A stretch of DNA of 64,000 nt from Larus michahellis (taxonomy: Eukaryota > Chordata > Aves > Charadriiformes > Laridae): positions 90,876,215-90,940,214 of the forward strand of contig NC_133896.1 of NCBI RefSeq assembly GCF_964199755.1. Reading direction: 5' to 3'. Below the pieces are notes generated by a model. It ran no database searches and was not told the DNA's origin. It was given only the letters and a program-made list of their open reading frames with translations. A program made the position numbers and the translations under genes. Positions within the stretch are counted from its first letter, which is position 1. Each line of letters opens with the position of its first letter. This document shows positions 222 to 63,285 of this stretch, piece by piece.

Positions 222-320
222 CCAAGGCGTCTTGTGCTCTGATATCAGCTCAATTTTCAATGAGTAAATACACAATTTCCTCACTCCCAGCACAGTCAGC
301 GAAAGATCAAATATGTTTTC
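222..320 (-). pseudogene. TRPV5/6-like pseudogene exon 5
   Basis: 99 bp with acceptor cttcag and donor G|gtaaga. Two in-frame TGA codons (309-307 and 252-250) replace a leucine TTA and a glycine GGA of the intact exon 62609-62511. The rest is recognisable (SEEIVYLLIEN, ADIRAQDALG). By hand alignment about 26 of 99 bases differ from the intact copy, and about 12 of these are synonymous. Confidence 0.9.
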
Positions 321-759
321 CTGAAGAACAGTTACAAGAAATGCAGGAAATAACATGAAGTTAAACAAAACTAATGAAAAAGTCAGAAAAACTCTGTGTC
401 AAAAAATGTCTCCATTTACACAATACCACTTTATTTGAAATTCCCACAACAACATTCCAAATTATTTGCTGAAGGTGAAAGCAGCAGAGGAATGTAGAGG
501 TTTTGCCTGAGAAAGACAGAAAATTATTTTGACGAGAATCAAGTCATAGCAAAGAGTAAAGGCAGAGCAAATGAAAGATACATGTTCTTCGGAGGAGAAG
601 GCGGAGGGAGAAAGAAGATCTTCCAGGCTGGGCCTGAAGAACGTAAGACACAAACAACGAGCAAATCCAGGAAGAATTTTGAAACTGAGAAATTGCTTTG
701 GGCCTACAGCCTCAGAATGAACAAAAACGCAGCAAAACTTTTGAGAACAGGGCTAACTA

Positions 760-1243
760 GATTCCACTTCTCTGGGCAACCTGCTCCAGTGCTTTATCAC
801 CCTCACGGTAAAAAATTGTTTCCTGATGTTCAGACGGAACCTCCTGTGTTTTAGTTTGTGCTGATTGCTTTTTGTTCTGTCACTGGGCACCTCTTAAAAG
901 AGTCTGGCTCTACCTTCTTTAAAGCATCCCTCCAGATTTCTGTACGTGTTGAACAGCCCCAGGTCTCTCAGCCTTGCCTCATAGGGGTGAAGCTCCAGTA
1001 ACCTAAATTGTCTTAGTGGCATTTTGTTGGACTTCATGCAGCAGCTCCACCCAGAACTGGGCACAGGACTCCAGGTGTGGCCTCACCAGAGCTGAGTAGA
1101 AGGGAATGATCACCTCCCTTGATCTGCTGGCAGCATTCCTCCTAATCAGACCAAGGTACCATTAGATTTTTTTGTGGCAAGGGCACATTTCCGGCTCATG
1201 TTCAACTTGGTGTCCATCAGGACCCCCAGGTCCTTTTCTGCAA
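760..1243 (-). mobile_element. CR1 LINE fragment, minus strand
   Basis: The minus strand resembles the conserved CR1 stretch from the RT C-terminal region (kdlgvlmD, SLE..RLRG) toward the 3' part (HWNRLPREV). Recognisable plus-strand pieces are the CCCCCAGGTCCTTTTCTGC end near 1225-1243, and CACCTCCC and CTCCAGGTGTGGCCTCACCAG around 1066-1120. It is degenerate, without an open frame, and the 3' tail is missing. Boundaries are uncertain by about 20 bp. Confidence 0.85.
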
Positions 1244-2810
1244 AGCCACATAGACAGAGGCATGATTTATAACAGGTTTTTTTTCAGGAGAGAAAGAACC
1301 GTTCGTACAATGACATGCAAGCAGAAGCATAACAAAGAAAAGACTCTATTATTTACAAACATCAGAAAGGACAAACAAGAAGGGAAAGGAATAGTTTATA
1401 TTAATCTTAACTCCTTTGTATAATCTTAGCTCCGACTTATGGTCTCTATTAACAGGGCAAAACAGAACTACTCAGTATTCATTAAGTCAAGTTCATCATG
1501 TACGGAGAAGCAGTGCAAGGCCTACGTCTCACTTCATTCTTATTTTATAGTGTGAGTGGGATGTAAAGGAGTTGATAAGCCTCCTAATGGCTCTATTTAC
1601 ACAGATTATTTTTTTCCTCATAAAAGTAGTTCACTTAAAATGCCTTTCCTTCAATGAAATGTCACTATATTTACAGTGAAGTAATTAAGAGTAAAATCAG
1701 ACCACCATCTGTAGCAAAATTTATCTGAAAAATGTCTAACTCTCCAAAAATTTGCATTCATTAAACAAGTACATGGAAAGATAAGTGACCCTCTTTTGGA
1801 AGCTTTCATGCTTTCTCAATCTGAAATTAGACAATGGACCAGTAGCTGTTTTAGAGGACAATGTTGAAAACTCAATGGGGTGGAAAGATCTATGATACTG
1901 GTTTCAGTAGGAGTAAATTTTAATGTTATTGGGAAAGAAATTAAAGTAGAAGTTTAATATACACATATGTACATGCACATATAACCTCCATGTACATACA
2001 TATACCCAACACAGGTATATACATATATACACACCACAGATGTATGACTGATAAAGAACTGAAGGGTCTGTATAAAAAGTAGTAGTAAATTTCACTCCTA
2101 AACTTATTTTCTTACACTGATAGATCATGGCATTGACAATTACTAAGTAAATTGGCCAGATCATTGTCTAACAGAAATCAACTAATGACCTTTATTGCAA
2201 TATTCCAGTTTTTATCAAATGACAGTTCAGACCAGTAGCACTTAAGGGAAAAACCCAACTTTATAGAGAGAAGAAATATGACCAGCAAGTTAAAGAATTT
2301 TGAGAAATGAAAACAGAAATGAAATATGGAAATGAAAACAGTTTTGGGTTTGCATTCTTTTCCATCTGTCCTGCAGAGATTTTCTGCTCTTCAGGGGTAA
2401 TTCAGATTAACAGTACAATGAAAAGATGATTCCATCCTGCACCAAGTCACGATGCTGATCTCACATCTTCTCTGTCTTGCCAAATCCTGGCAGCAGATGT
2501 CTTCCAACATTTCAGGGAGTGTTTTTTTATTATACACAGATTGATGCTTTGTGTCAAGAGCGAGCCTTACTGACTGTTAGCAAACATATAATTCTTCTTT
2601 GCTTTTTCTGCTCTAGTTCTAAGTGACCAGTGCTTTGTCTGCTAATTGACTAATATTCTGTATCTCAAATTCTGTACTATCACAAATATTTCCTAATTCT
2701 CAGACTACACTTTTGCTTATCAAATTTCAATCCTTTACTTTTTGTTATATTTTCTGAGACCTTTTTGAAAAATTGCTCTCTATGGTTTTCGTATGCTTCT
2801 TTGAAGCATA

Positions 2811-2892
2811 TGATGAGGTGATGAGATGAGATGATGAGATGAGGTGAGGTGAGATGAGAAGCGGTGACAGGATATGACGTGATGTGACATGA
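2811..2892. repeat. GATGA/GAGGT purine-rich simple repeat
   Basis: An imperfect array of GATGA and GGTGA units from the TGATGAGG near 2811 to about 2892, purine-rich on the plus strand. The small minus-strand open frame across it is a product of the repeat. Confidence 0.8.
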
Positions 2893-3829
2893 AGACTATA
2901 GGAAAGAAGAGCAGAAAGAAATAGATTCACGTGAGAAAGAAATAGGAAAGACAGATGACTAAATCATAAGTCTGTGCAGTCTGAAACAATGATCTTTAAT
3001 TTCAAAATGGTAGATAAATTCTGTGAATATTTTATATATATATGTGTATATATATACTTTCTGACAGTAACATTTTAAGTGAACAATATCACTGACACAA
3101 AGCCATCTGCATTATATTAAGGGACAAACCATATCAAATATCAAATATTTCCTTACAACACATGTGGACCCACAGAAGAACAGTTCCATTTGAGAAGAAA
3201 ACATTATTCAACAGTATGGATACATTTGCACATTCTACACTTTTGTTCTTCAGATAATTTTTATGCTGACTTTAGTTTGGTATTACTTTCCACACACAGC
3301 AGAATTTCATATTGCATAATTCCATTCACAGTTGAGGTTGCTGAATGTTTTAATAGTTGGACATGGAAGAGCTGATGCTCTTGGGCACAAGAGCAAGCAC
3401 GGTATGAAGTTTCAGATTAGTTGTATTAGTGCTGTAATGGGTGATAGTTAATGACTACATTAACAGCTCTTGTCAATATCATTATATTACAGAGTCAACA
3501 CCCAGGATTAAAGTTTGGTCCTTCTTTTAACTGTATCAGGCTAACTGCAGGCTCAGACAGGCATTTCTCCATGGGTAACAGTTCCACTTCAGTACATGGA
3601 CTAAAGATTACTTCCTTTTTTAACGAAGACCAAACCTATGGAGCAAAGTTCTCTGACAAGATTTGCCTTCCTTGGCAATTCTGAAGTTAGGGCTTATGGA
3701 AGACACATGGATGTGCTACTGATTAGACAGATTGATAGAAAGAGGAAGAAAAGGAGCACAGATGCAAAGACACCCAGCTAGCATGTCACGGATGAAAACA
3801 TCACAGCAGTTTAGGCCACAGGTAAATAC

Positions 3830-3967
3830 CAAAGTAGATGAGATGGTAACTGTTGTGTCTGAAAACTTATCCCGTGGCCCGAGGATTCTTGACATCAGCT
3901 CCCTTTTCCATTCTTGCCTTCACCAAACTGGTTTCATTCACCACAGCAATGTGAAGAGCAGTCTCCC
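3830..3967 (-). pseudogene. TRPV5/6-like pseudogene exon 4
   Basis: 138 bp against 141 bp in the intact copy, a one-codon deletion in the VNxxxxLV loop. The acceptor is attacag and the donor G|gtattt. It reads ETALHIAVVNETSLVKARME then KGADVKNPRATG, followed by TAA at 3869-3867, then VFRHNSYHLIYF. The corresponding intact exon is 63145-63285. Confidence 0.9.
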
Positions 3968-5400
3968 CTGTAATACACAATTTGCTTGTTGTCTATCATA
4001 GCATACCAAATGTGCCAGAAGCACTACAACAATTAGACATCCACAGCACAGCCACAGGCATTTTATCAGTGGAAAACTGAGAGATACTTGGTAAAATACA
4101 GGATTTAAAGAAATTTCCATGGGAATGAGTAACGAATATCCATGGAACTGGGGACATGAAGTGTATGATTTCTCTAGAGTCTTGAAATTCTCAATTCAGA
4201 CTCTCATCTCATTTACATGTTAGGAGTGACTTTGTAGAAGACAATCTGGATTTTGTCGTGTGAGAGGGACCACAGGATCTGGCCTAGTTTTTCAGCCATG
4301 CAGTCTTTAATTTGTTTTGACCTGAAGGCAGATACTACAACTGTGAAATGACTTGCCACTCAGAATGAATGATATTCATACTCAGCATTTCTCAAAGTGT
4401 TTCAGCACCTTGTTTATTCCACTTATGTTCCTACTCACATTTTTACGCTTCTGTAATAACTTCTGTGTGAGTATCTCAAGCATTGGAAATGTTCACCAAA
4501 TTTTACATCAGCCTTTGTTTACGACTCTGAAATAATTCACGGTATTTTGCAGATGGAGAAACTGGGGCATAGAGAAATGAAGACCATTGTTCAGAGACAG
4601 GCAAATGACCATAGCTAGGTTTCCCACATAAATCACTGTATTTGCTACTTCTTTTCAGTCTTTTTCTGAAATAAGGGGATTCAATTCTCACACAATGTAC
4701 AGAGTTGCTACAAAACCATTCTAAAAAAGCGGCATCCTCCTTGAAAAACTCACAGAGTTAAATGTAACGTTCACACTGAAATTTAGGCAAAACAACTGGA
4801 TCAGTACTGCTGCTCCTGAGGGCTACATGAATGTACAAGAAATTCAGATGCGTTCTCCTCTCATTGAGTGTGTTCGGTCAGGGAGGAGGCTTCTCCCCAG
4901 GGCTGCTTACATTGCTTCCTCTGGCATGTCTCTGTGTAGCAACAACTGTGAGAATGAACTTCCGACAGGAAAAGCATCATTTTATGAATCCATACTGCTT
5001 CTTGAAGCACTGAAACATACCTGCAGAGGTTATCAAGAAGTGATCTTGCTCAACTATCAATCCAGACAAATCAAATGGGAATGAGAAATGGGGAAAAAAG
5101 GCTGAGAACAGGATATATTCTAAGGACAAAATAAACTTCTGGGCTACTTAGGTCAGCATATATACACAGCTTTTTTAGATCAGTGTAGGTACACAGTTCA
5201 CTTCTTGGAATGAGAGCAGAGTATCCAGAGGTGTCAAGCAACCGAGTCAGGGGACAATAAAATCAAATGTCCTTGAGTAGATAAGTTTCACTGGCTGATT
5301 GGGATCCTGAGTGATTCTTTAAGATGGATCTGGACCATTATTGGACCGTTTTGGACCATTTGGGTGTTCTGACACTCTCCTTTCAGCTCATCATTTTTAC
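3968..5400 (-). other. Intron 3 of the pseudogene
   Basis: 1433 bp between pseudogene exons 3 and 4. I see no further exon, repeat family or RNA gene in it. The short open frames (for example plus-strand 4827-5084) show no family resemblance. Confidence 0.6.
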
Positions 5401-5523
5401 CTGCTTACAGCTCAGATGTCATTACTTCATTGACAAGCTCCAGGGATGCCTCCATCACAGCCTGAGCAGCATCCACATTGCCGTACCAGGCAGCCACATG
5501 AAGGGCTGTCTCCTTCATTGCAC
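5401..5523 (-). pseudogene. TRPV5/6-like pseudogene exon 3
   Basis: 123 bp, exactly the family length. The acceptor is cactag and the donor G|gtaaaa. It reads [20 protein letters not shown] then [18 protein letters not shown], followed by TAA at 5407-5405 where the family has the tyrosine of ELYEG. The rest is open and well conserved, so decay looks limited to substitutions. Confidence 0.92.
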
Positions 5524-5711
5524 CTAGTGACACAATAGTAAGTTAACCACCTCAGTGCTGAATGCCCACCATTCAGCTGTTTCCACTCCACCCTGGCAAG
5601 TTTATTCTCTGCCACAGTTGCAGCCCTGAGCCCGTTATCCAAACATGCCGACCCCAGAAGTTTTCTTCTCAAAAGTATTTCAGACAAGGCTAGTATAGGA
5701 AGGGGCGCTAC

Positions 5712-5809
5712 CACTCTAATGCATACCACAGGCTTTACAAGCAAGAAGTTTCTGAATAGCTTGCACGTCATTATCCTTCGAGGCCTGGAGCAGGGGAGAT
5801 TCCCGGAGC
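5712..5809 (-). pseudogene. TRPV5/6-like pseudogene exon 2
   Basis: 98 bp with acceptor gttccag and donor G|gtagcg. It reads LRESPLLQASKDNDVQAIQK then LLACKACGMH, followed by TAG at 5718-5716 in place of the conserved glutamine of the VHQRG motif. The ESPLL.A.KDNDVQA signature is characteristic of the first TRPV5/6 ankyrin repeat. A T16 stretch lies 33-48 bp upstream of the exon on the minus strand. Confidence 0.9.
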
Positions 5810-25800: not shown

Positions 25801-28205
25801 CCTGGGACTTTGCATGCGGATGGTGGAAGACTTCTGTGATCTCTGTTTTACTCTCCTCCACAGTCACACAATTTAAAACGCTTTAAAAATTTGTCCCTCT
25901 CCACAAACACTTCAGCAGAGAAGAGACCTATCAGAGAGGATGAGTAATAAACATGGGTGTGACACATCAAATTTGTGGTTGCAATTGGGCCAAAGGTCAG
26001 AGTATGGCTGCCTCAAGACCACAAACTATTAATTATGGCAAAAGATTCCTGATCTCTGTTGTGCTTTCCCTTACAATTTGGAGCTACTGAGTTCTCAGTT
26101 GTCAAATCAGCTATGCTATTGTGTTGTAGTGTGCTTTAGTCTGTCTTTGGGCATCTTTGGAATGCCCATTTCTTGACACATAATTATATATGAAAAGAAG
26201 AACTGTTTCTAAGCTGCCTGGAGACAACAATTATTCTCTGCATCCAAGTCTAGGCTAGAAAACAGGTAAACACCAGGTGGGGACAGTAGACAAGGAAAAC
26301 ACCTGAAGTAAAGGGCAGAGAGGAACATCAAGTCTCGGACGTACCCTTTTTTTTCTGCTGTGATTTCATCCAGGCACCTAGCCTGAGTTCTTTCACCCTG
26401 TAAGGAGTGCAAAAAAGAGCCCTAGAGCCAGAGGAGAAACCCATGATCCTCAGCAGGACCATCCCCATGGTTGTGTGCCCTCCTCAGCTGAGCTCAAACA
26501 GCTACCTCCATCTCTTTCTCCCTCTAGTGTGTGTCTGTAAATGGCACTTTCTCCTCCTGTTCCATCTGGGATAAGATTATCCAAGTGGGAAACAGGTGCT
26601 CCTGCAGAAAAGGTCAGTGCAGAAGAGTGGCAGAGAATTACAACATTTGGCTAAGGCAGGCAACTTGGCTGAGTTCCAGAGACAGCCAGCCTGCTGAGTG
26701 AAAGAGAGCGAGCATGCACCTGTCTTCCAAACTGCTTCCTGATTTAAAGAGAGGTGGCTTTCTTCAGAAGCTGTAAGAAGTCTACTGTGTTCCCCAAATA
26801 GTCTTGTTGGTACTCCACACAGGATTTCCAGCACATATTTTCAAGAACAGATTTTTTTGACAGAAACAGCAGAGTTATAACAGAAGTGCCAAAGGTTGTC
26901 AGGGGCTACTTTTGCCTCCTCTCCTTTTCACTTTCTTTCTCTTTCAGGTACATTTTGTCCCTGTCTGCAGAAGAGGGAACAATGATAGTGACAGGAGACC
27001 AAATGGGAAGGACTGCTTGAAGCTCTTCTGCTTCAAGTTCTAGGCAAACTCCTCTCTTGCATCTCTCACCACAAGCAAAGCCCACATGCATATGCTTAAA
27101 CCTCAGCCCTGAGTAACAGCTACCCATGCCCTTCAGCTATCCTAAGATGTTCTTTTCCCCCTGTGTGAGTCATTAAACCAAAAGTATATCAGCAAAGGGC
27201 CTGAAAAGGAGTCACCTCCGTAAGTTATCTTTAATGCAGACATCTGTTGCACATTCAAAAATATCCTTGCAGGTACTTGCTATCCCTGAATGAAAATTTC
27301 ATCATACTAGATTGGCAATGAAAAAATGTGAGGGCCCAGGCTGTCATTTTTTCTCTCTCATGCTACTCAACTGAATGAGCATGAAAAGCACACTAACCCA
27401 AAACTACTTGTGAGGCTGAGTTAGGTCACAGGTCTCTTGTTAAACAGACATCACAAAGCCACAGTATCATCTAGCTGTCACCATAAACCAAGGACGACAG
27501 CCTCATTCTCTAATCATGACTAGAAATCAAAGAAAACTTGTTTTGATCGGTAAAGCATGAGTTGGAATGACTGTAATCTGCTGCAGGTTTGGCAGGCTGG
27601 CTTGAGCCAGGTCTCTGGGTACAGTCTGTCTGCTGAACTGCATGAGGATAAACCCTGTGAACTCAGAGAGTGTCACCACCCCTTTCCTTTCAAAGGCACT
27701 GCAGGGTGGGTGACGGGGGGAGGGTTTACATGGACAAGTGTGAGAAATTCAGCGACTCGGAGCATAAACCTCTGTTTCCTCCTCGCGTCAGGGACAGTCA
27801 GGAAGAGAAATCTGTCTTCCTGCAAATGGATGAAGGGCTTTAAAGTGGTGGTGGTGGGAGGAATATGGAACTCAGTCTATATAGCAGCCTATCATCTTTC
27901 TCACATGAGGGTCTTTGTGAGTTCAGGTTAGATAGGAATGCATGTGTTCACACCATAAAGTAAAATTACTTTATATATAACTGCTCTGCTGATGGTTGTG
28001 ACTGAACTTGCCTTTAAGGACAGCAGTGATGCTTGTGTTCACAGGAACACTTACCCAAAATATCAGACAAACAGCATTTGTTCTGGTTTTCTTAGCTGGA
28101 AAATAGTCTCTTGAAAAGTGGTTAAATATCAAGGGCCTGATTTTTGACAAGGAAAAGGCTTAGAAGGAGTAAAACCCTGTATGGCCCTCTCAAAACAAAC
28201 TCTCA
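22813..28205. other. Unassigned intergenic sequence
   Basis: No recognisable gene or repeat family. The segments around 25.1-25.65 kb and 26.4-27.9 kb look less AT-rich than their surroundings and give longer chance frames (113 residues at 25315-25656, 124 residues at 27557-27931), but neither has a recognisable domain or a convincing splice context. An (AAAC)-like run lies at about 24041-24074. Confidence 0.5.
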
Positions 28206-29543
28206 TTCCCTATCAACCATTTCGTAGAATAGAATCATAGAATCATAGAATGGTTTACGTTGGAAGGGACCTTAAAGATCGAATAGTTCCGATGCCCCTG
28301 CCATAGGCAAGTATGCCTCCCAGTAGACCAGGTTACTCAAAGCCCCATCCAGCCCGGTCTTGAACACTTCCAGGGATGGGGCCCTCACAACTTCTCTGGG
28401 CACCCTGTTCCAGTGTCCCTTATAGTGAAAAATTTGTTCCTGATATCTGATCTAAATCTACCCTCTTCCAGTTTGAAGTCATTACCTCTCGTCAGTACAT
28501 GCCCTTGTAAAAAGTCCCTCTCCAGCTTTCCTGTAGGCCCCCTTCAGGTACTGGAAGGCTGCTATAAGGTCTTCCCAGAGCCTTCTCTTCTCCAGGCTGA
28601 ACAACCCCAACTCTCTCAGCCTGTGTTCATAGGAGAGGTGCTCCTGCCCCCTGATCACCTTCATGGCCCTCCTCTGGACCTGCTGCAACATGTCCACATC
28701 CTTCCTGTGCTGAGAACTCCAGAGCTGGACAAAGTACTCCAGGTGGGGTCTCACAGGACCAGAGTAGAGGAGGAAAATCACCTCCCTCAAGCTGCTGGGC
28801 CGCCCTTCTTTTGGTGCAGCCCAGGATGCAGTTCACTTTCTGGGCTGCGAGAGAGCATTGCCAGCTCATGCTGAGCTTCTTATCCACCAACACCACCAAC
28901 ATCCCTCTCCTCAGGGCTGCTCTCAATCAATTCTTTGCCCAGCCTGTATTTGTGCTTGGGATTGTCATGATCCAGGTGCAGGACCTTGCACTTGGCCTTG
29001 TTCCACTTCATGAAGTTGGTATGGGCCCACCTCTTAAGCCTGTCAAGGTGCCTCTGGATGGCATCCCTTCCTTCGAGCATGTCAACCACACCACTCAGCT
29101 TGGTGTTGTTGGCAAACTTGCTGAGGGTGCATTCAATCCCACTGCCCATGTTGCCAACAAAGATGTTAGACAGCACCAGTCTCAGTACCCACCCCTGAGG
29201 AACACCACTTGTCACTGGTTTCCATTTGGACATCAAGCCATTGACTGCAACTCTTTGTGGCCATCCAGCCAGTTCCTTATGCACCGAGTGGTCCATCCAT
29301 AAAATCCATGTCTCTCCAATTTAGATACCAGGATGTCGTATGGGACAGTGTCAAACACTTTGCCTGTAAGTCCAGGTAGCTGACATCTATTGCTCTTCCC
29401 TTACCCACTAATGCTGTAACCCATCATAGAAGGTCACCAAATTTGTCAGGCATGACTTCCCTTGTTGAAGCTATGTTGGCTGTCACCAGTCACCTCCTTA
29501 TTTTCCACGTGCCTTAGCAGAGTTTCCAGGACACACATAAATT
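28206..29543 (-). mobile_element. CR1 LINE with reverse transcriptase region, minus strand
   Basis: About 1.34 kb. The left end is the 3' tail (plus-strand TAGAATCATAGAATCATAGAATGG, 28213 onward). The minus-strand frame 29296-28880 reads [20 protein letters not shown], then the catalytic box as SKFANNTKL, where both aspartates of the usual FADD are Asn. A later frame (28790-28482) covers VRPHLEYFVQLWSSQH to [20 protein letters not shown]. Frames are split by indels and the catalytic site is mutated, so the copy is dead. Confidence 0.93.

Positions 29544-48508: not shown

Positions 48509-63285
<14,777 letters not shown>

Follow-up and report, generated by a model that had tools for sequence, protein, structure and literature searches.

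The window analyzed here is a 64,000-nucleotide stretch of the Larus michahellis genome. Its minus strand carries a TRPV5/6-type gene with an open reading frame and, downstream of it, a degraded second copy, to which we refer as the relic (Table 1). Between positions 5809 and 222 we found four TRPV5/6-type channel exons (exons 2 to 5) in continuous phase and with AG/GT borders, as the original prediction had proposed. The five in-frame stops that it had reported were each recovered at their predicted positions, and all of them are in frame when the phase is taken from the splice sites, giving five stops in 152 codons. Its description of the exons as having the length typical of the family was accurate except for one codon. 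Exon 5 measures 99 nt in the relic as well as in the neighboring TRPV5, and exon 4 is 3 nt shorter in the relic than in its neighbor (138 versus 141 nt).

Table 1. Exons of the relic and of the neighboring TRPV5 gene in the window.
Feature	Coordinates	Strand	Description	Evidence
Relic exon 1	26345..26468	-	124 nt; ATG and GT donor kept; stop TAG 26424-26422	tblastn, borders from sequence
Relic exon 2	5712..5809	-	98 nt; stop TAG 5718-5716	splice borders, tblastn
Relic exon 3	5401..5523	-	123 nt; stop TAA 5407-5405	splice borders, tblastn
Relic exon 4	3830..3967	-	138 nt, one codon short; stop TAA 3869-3867	splice borders, tblastn
Relic exon 5	222..320	-	99 nt; stops TGA 309-307 and TGA 252-250	splice borders, tblastn
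Neighboring TRPV5, exons 4-15	48509..63285	-	12 exons, 607 codons, open, ends TAG	AG/GT at all intron borders

A tblastn comparison of Alligator TRPV6 (P0108) with the window detected exons 2, 3, 4, and 5 of the relic with E values of 3e-8, 2e-10, 9e-16, and 5e-10, respectively. The match of these exons to TRPV6 is far above chance. A frameshift initially suspected in exon 5 was dropped, because the split codon is set by exon 4 and the frame is continuous. The edge of the window falls inside the relic gene, which thus has at least five exons. Exons 6 to 15 would lie to the left of position 1, among them exon 7, in which a sauropsid TRPV6 carries its D/L/T triad. The flanking genes, expected to be EPHB6 and KEL for a sauropsid TRPV6, would likewise fall outside the window.

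The extent of 222 to 5809 originally assigned to the relic is right for exons 2 to 5, but the relic reaches further. Exon 2 is preceded, at a distance of 20.5 kb, by an exon 1 at 26.4 kb, outside the region that had been recognized before. The GT donor of exon 1 matches the phase of exon 2. Our own alignment with the Alligator protein places a one-base frameshift deletion upstream of the TAG stop of this exon and shows the loss of about one codon near the end of the exon. The N terminus of Alligator TRPV6 matched the exon with 64% identity over 28 amino acids by tblastn, scoring 34.3 bits as compared to a best score of 20.0 bits in 40 scrambled windows. All six sauropsid TRPV6 N termini that we tried found their best match at this site (E from 1e-6 to 0.014), as opposed to none of the four other N termini (three of TRPV5 and that of human TRPV6). 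Among these four, the N terminus of Gavialis TRPV5 reached an E value of 0.14 at the exon 1 site, and the best match anywhere in the window, with an E value of 0.028, was that of Crypturellus TRPV5, which lay away from this site. Because of the latter, the weakest TRPV6 queries would be unconvincing on their own. When the interval from 5.8 to 48 kb was searched for more exons of the relic by tblastn with nine TRPV5/6 proteins, only exon 1 came out at E <0.01, and the remaining matches had E values of 0.2 to 1.

The neighboring gene is on the same strand as the relic, as had been predicted, and lies upstream of it, with 22 kb between its exon 15 and exon 1 of the relic. The original prediction had called this gene intact; it does form a single open frame, a statement that holds for exons 4 to 15. 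No exons 1 to 3 turned up in the window; they are expected past its right end. The encoded protein is 95% identical to duck TRPV5/6 records over all 607 residues. Its closest records were those of Accipiter (98% identity over 85% of the query), Himantopus (98% over 84%), and Nyctiprogne (97% over 84%), each of which is incomplete or diverges at one of its ends, and each of which represents a cluster at 90% identity. In the tree described below, which for this gene covers exons 4 and 5 only, it clustered with bird TRPV5 (support 100/99). It also carries the E/F/S triad of the helix-loop-helix, whose positions we mapped by hand from the residue numbers in PMC7250927. The same triad was present in 6/6 sauropsid TRPV5 rows examined (bird, turtle, gharial, and anole), as compared to D/L/T in 7/7 sauropsid TRPV6 rows. 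Judged by its sequence, the neighboring gene is the avian TRPV5. Within its intron 14, positions 49245-49427 (minus strand) match the C-terminal tail of the Accipiter TRPV5 record at 80% and contain stops in the window; perhaps the gene model behind that record reads through the intron.

Over its first five exons, the relic carries six stops, one frameshift (in our own alignment), and two losses of about one codon each. It is changed at 9 of 52 columns that are invariant in 24 functional channels, a set that excludes the partial row of Struthio, and two of the nine changes are stops. In a similar test, each of six functional channels (Accipiter, Grus, Alligator, Pelusios, Gavialis, and human) was examined at the columns on which the remaining non-bird rows all agree; they were changed at 0 to 2 of 54 to 56 columns, as compared to 9/54 for the relic. 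The first stop lies in exon 1, ahead of the ankyrin repeats, and thus the ancestral frame cannot encode a channel.

Next to these lesions, all nine readable splice dinucleotides and the ATG of exon 1 are intact, a pattern that would suit a pseudogene that is still transcribed and whose splicing is maintained for some non-coding function. When a neutral simulation was matched to the invariant codons, 51 in number, the divergence of the relic came out at ~0.10 changes per site, the values of 0.05 and 0.20 lying close to the 2 to 3% tails. Under a simple neutral model, the chance that all 16 splice bases stay unchanged is ~0.2 at a divergence of 0.10 and 0.04 at 0.20. These values lend a non-coding role some support; however, given the divergence that the invariant codons indicate, intact splice bases are nothing out of the ordinary, and we consider such a role very unlikely. 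In the simulation, at least five stops together with at most nine changes at invariant codons occurred in no more than 0.2% of 1500 runs at each divergence from 0.05 to 0.30. The stops are thus too numerous for so small a number of invariant-codon changes under a simple neutral model, for which we see no explanation beyond chance and ascertainment. We put no weight on it, because the statistic was picked post hoc and the locus itself had been chosen for its stops and readable exons.

To assign the relic to a paralogue, we searched a database of 5.8 billion proteins with the read-through of exons 2 to 5 and used the best 120 of 302 matches. The candidates were limited to proteins of ~370 to 1190 residues, a range that short bird fragments would escape. 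The best match was Alligator TRPV6, with 73% identity over 99% of the read-through, followed by proteins of turtles, tuatara, and squamates. Among the best 120 of the 302 matches, 34 rows, all from non-avian reptiles, stood ahead of the first bird protein, and the bird channels reached 60 to 62%. A few of these 34 rows are turtle TRPV5 according to the tree (P0134 and P0140), and P0134, at 64%, ranks amid squamate TRPV6 rows. Thus, rank or identity alone cannot separate the paralogues.

The tree was built from 27 rows, consisting of the two copies from the window and 25 of the 175 proteins returned for these copies, hand-picked for spread. Eight sauropsid TRPV6 rows formed a clade with the relic (support 98/99), and forcing the relic among the sauropsid TRPV5 rows was rejected with a p-AU of 0.0095, a value that is not for the relic alone, as the constraint also held the sauropsid TRPV5 rows together. 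The support of the sauropsid TRPV5 group was weak (64/87). The end branch of the relic is long (0.36), which is what decay predicts. Within the TRPV6 clade, the tree does not fix the exact sister of the relic, nor does it fix how the sauropsid and mammalian groups branch relative to one another. These results bear on the possibility that the relic is a young copy of this bird's TRPV5, duplicated in tandem within its own lineage and soon inactivated. Its tandem position on the strand of TRPV5 would fit such an origin; however, the closer match to Alligator TRPV6 than to any bird channel among the matches listed, together with the placement in the tree, contradicts it, and we give it very little credence.

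It is just as hard to believe that the stops are assembly or sequencing errors in a gene that still works. All six stops, the frameshift, and the changes of invariant residues fall in one copy, its neighbor being clean over 607 codons, and the same gene has been reported as dead in other birds (PMC7250927, PMC9664204). A processed retrocopy is ruled out, with next to no chance left to it, by the four introns with AG/GT borders that split the five exons, as the original prediction had argued.

We are therefore highly confident that the remnant is an unprocessed tandem pseudogene, the avian relic of sauropsid TRPV6 (sauTRPV5-2). The sequence and the tree together bear out the earlier view of a dead, unprocessed paralogue in tandem and on one strand with an open TRPV5/6 gene. 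In the history that we propose, sauropsids started out with two epithelial calcium channels in tandem on one strand, of which the downstream member, TRPV6, has lost its function in this bird and is decaying by mutation. The relic probably yields no product. The upstream TRPV5, open in all exons seen, presumably carries calcium transport alone and would cover the function of the lost channel.

The relic has already been described in birds and is not new. Leftover exons of sauropsid TRPV6 were reported from the chicken genome in 2020 (PMC7250927), where it was stated that birds kept a single calcium-selective TRPV channel, the sauropsid TRPV5, and the loss of TRPV6 was placed in the bird ancestor by inference. 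As in chicken, leftover TRPV6 exons stand in our window beside one calcium-selective TRPV5 with E/F/S; the comparison in that report is between chicken and crocodile. Our window shows an exon 1. In 2022, a sauTRPV5-2 pseudogene was described in several birds, with 1 to 9 exons each: nine in duck, six in golden eagle, six in emu, five in chicken, and three or one in others (PMC9664204). It resembles our relic as a tandem TRPV5 paralogue that became a pseudogene and partly lost its exons, but differs in that our window holds five exons and ends inside the gene. The loss of a calcium-channel copy that the original prediction had put forward is thus real, but it had been named in these two publications. 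Beyond them, our literature search, which covered titles and the starts of abstracts of the papers listed, found no further work on the relic. What the window adds is small, namely a further avian sequence, an exon 1, and an approximate estimate of the neutral divergence (~0.1 per site, 0.05 to 0.20).

In mammals, TRPV5 and TRPV6 lie on one strand. They had been offered as a comparable pair, and as tandem calcium-selective channels they do serve as an analogue. However, they are not the same pair, since they arose by a duplication separate from that of the sauropsid pair (PMC7250927, PMC9664204), and, unlike in birds, both members work.

As argued in PMC7250927, the bird gene that often goes by the name of TRPV6 is orthologous to the TRPV5 of sauropsids. 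With one calcium-selective TRPV channel, birds transfer large amounts of calcium into the eggshell, whereas other sauropsids and mammals keep two. This point on bird calcium has already been made; it would be extended by a loss that is dated and resolved by lineage.

The avian substitution rate is near 2e-9 per site per year. At this rate, the divergence of the relic would correspond to an age of roughly 25 to 100 million years, a range so wide that a loss in the bird ancestor is not separated from later losses. The published view of a single ancestral loss may be wrong, and the relic may have been constrained well into the bird radiation and then silenced independently in several lineages; we hold this to be a serious possibility, albeit the less probable one.

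We also surveyed the remaining content of the window. No Rfam family of structured RNA reached its gathering score. Ten chosen open reading frames were compared with Pfam; eight matched nothing and two matched reverse transcriptase, one above and one just below the curated score. These two belong to LINE-like fragments, which we observed at 58064-58567 (plus strand), 28880-29320 (minus strand), and ~780-1240 (minus strand). The last of these, which we take to be CR1-like, sits inside intron 4 of the relic.
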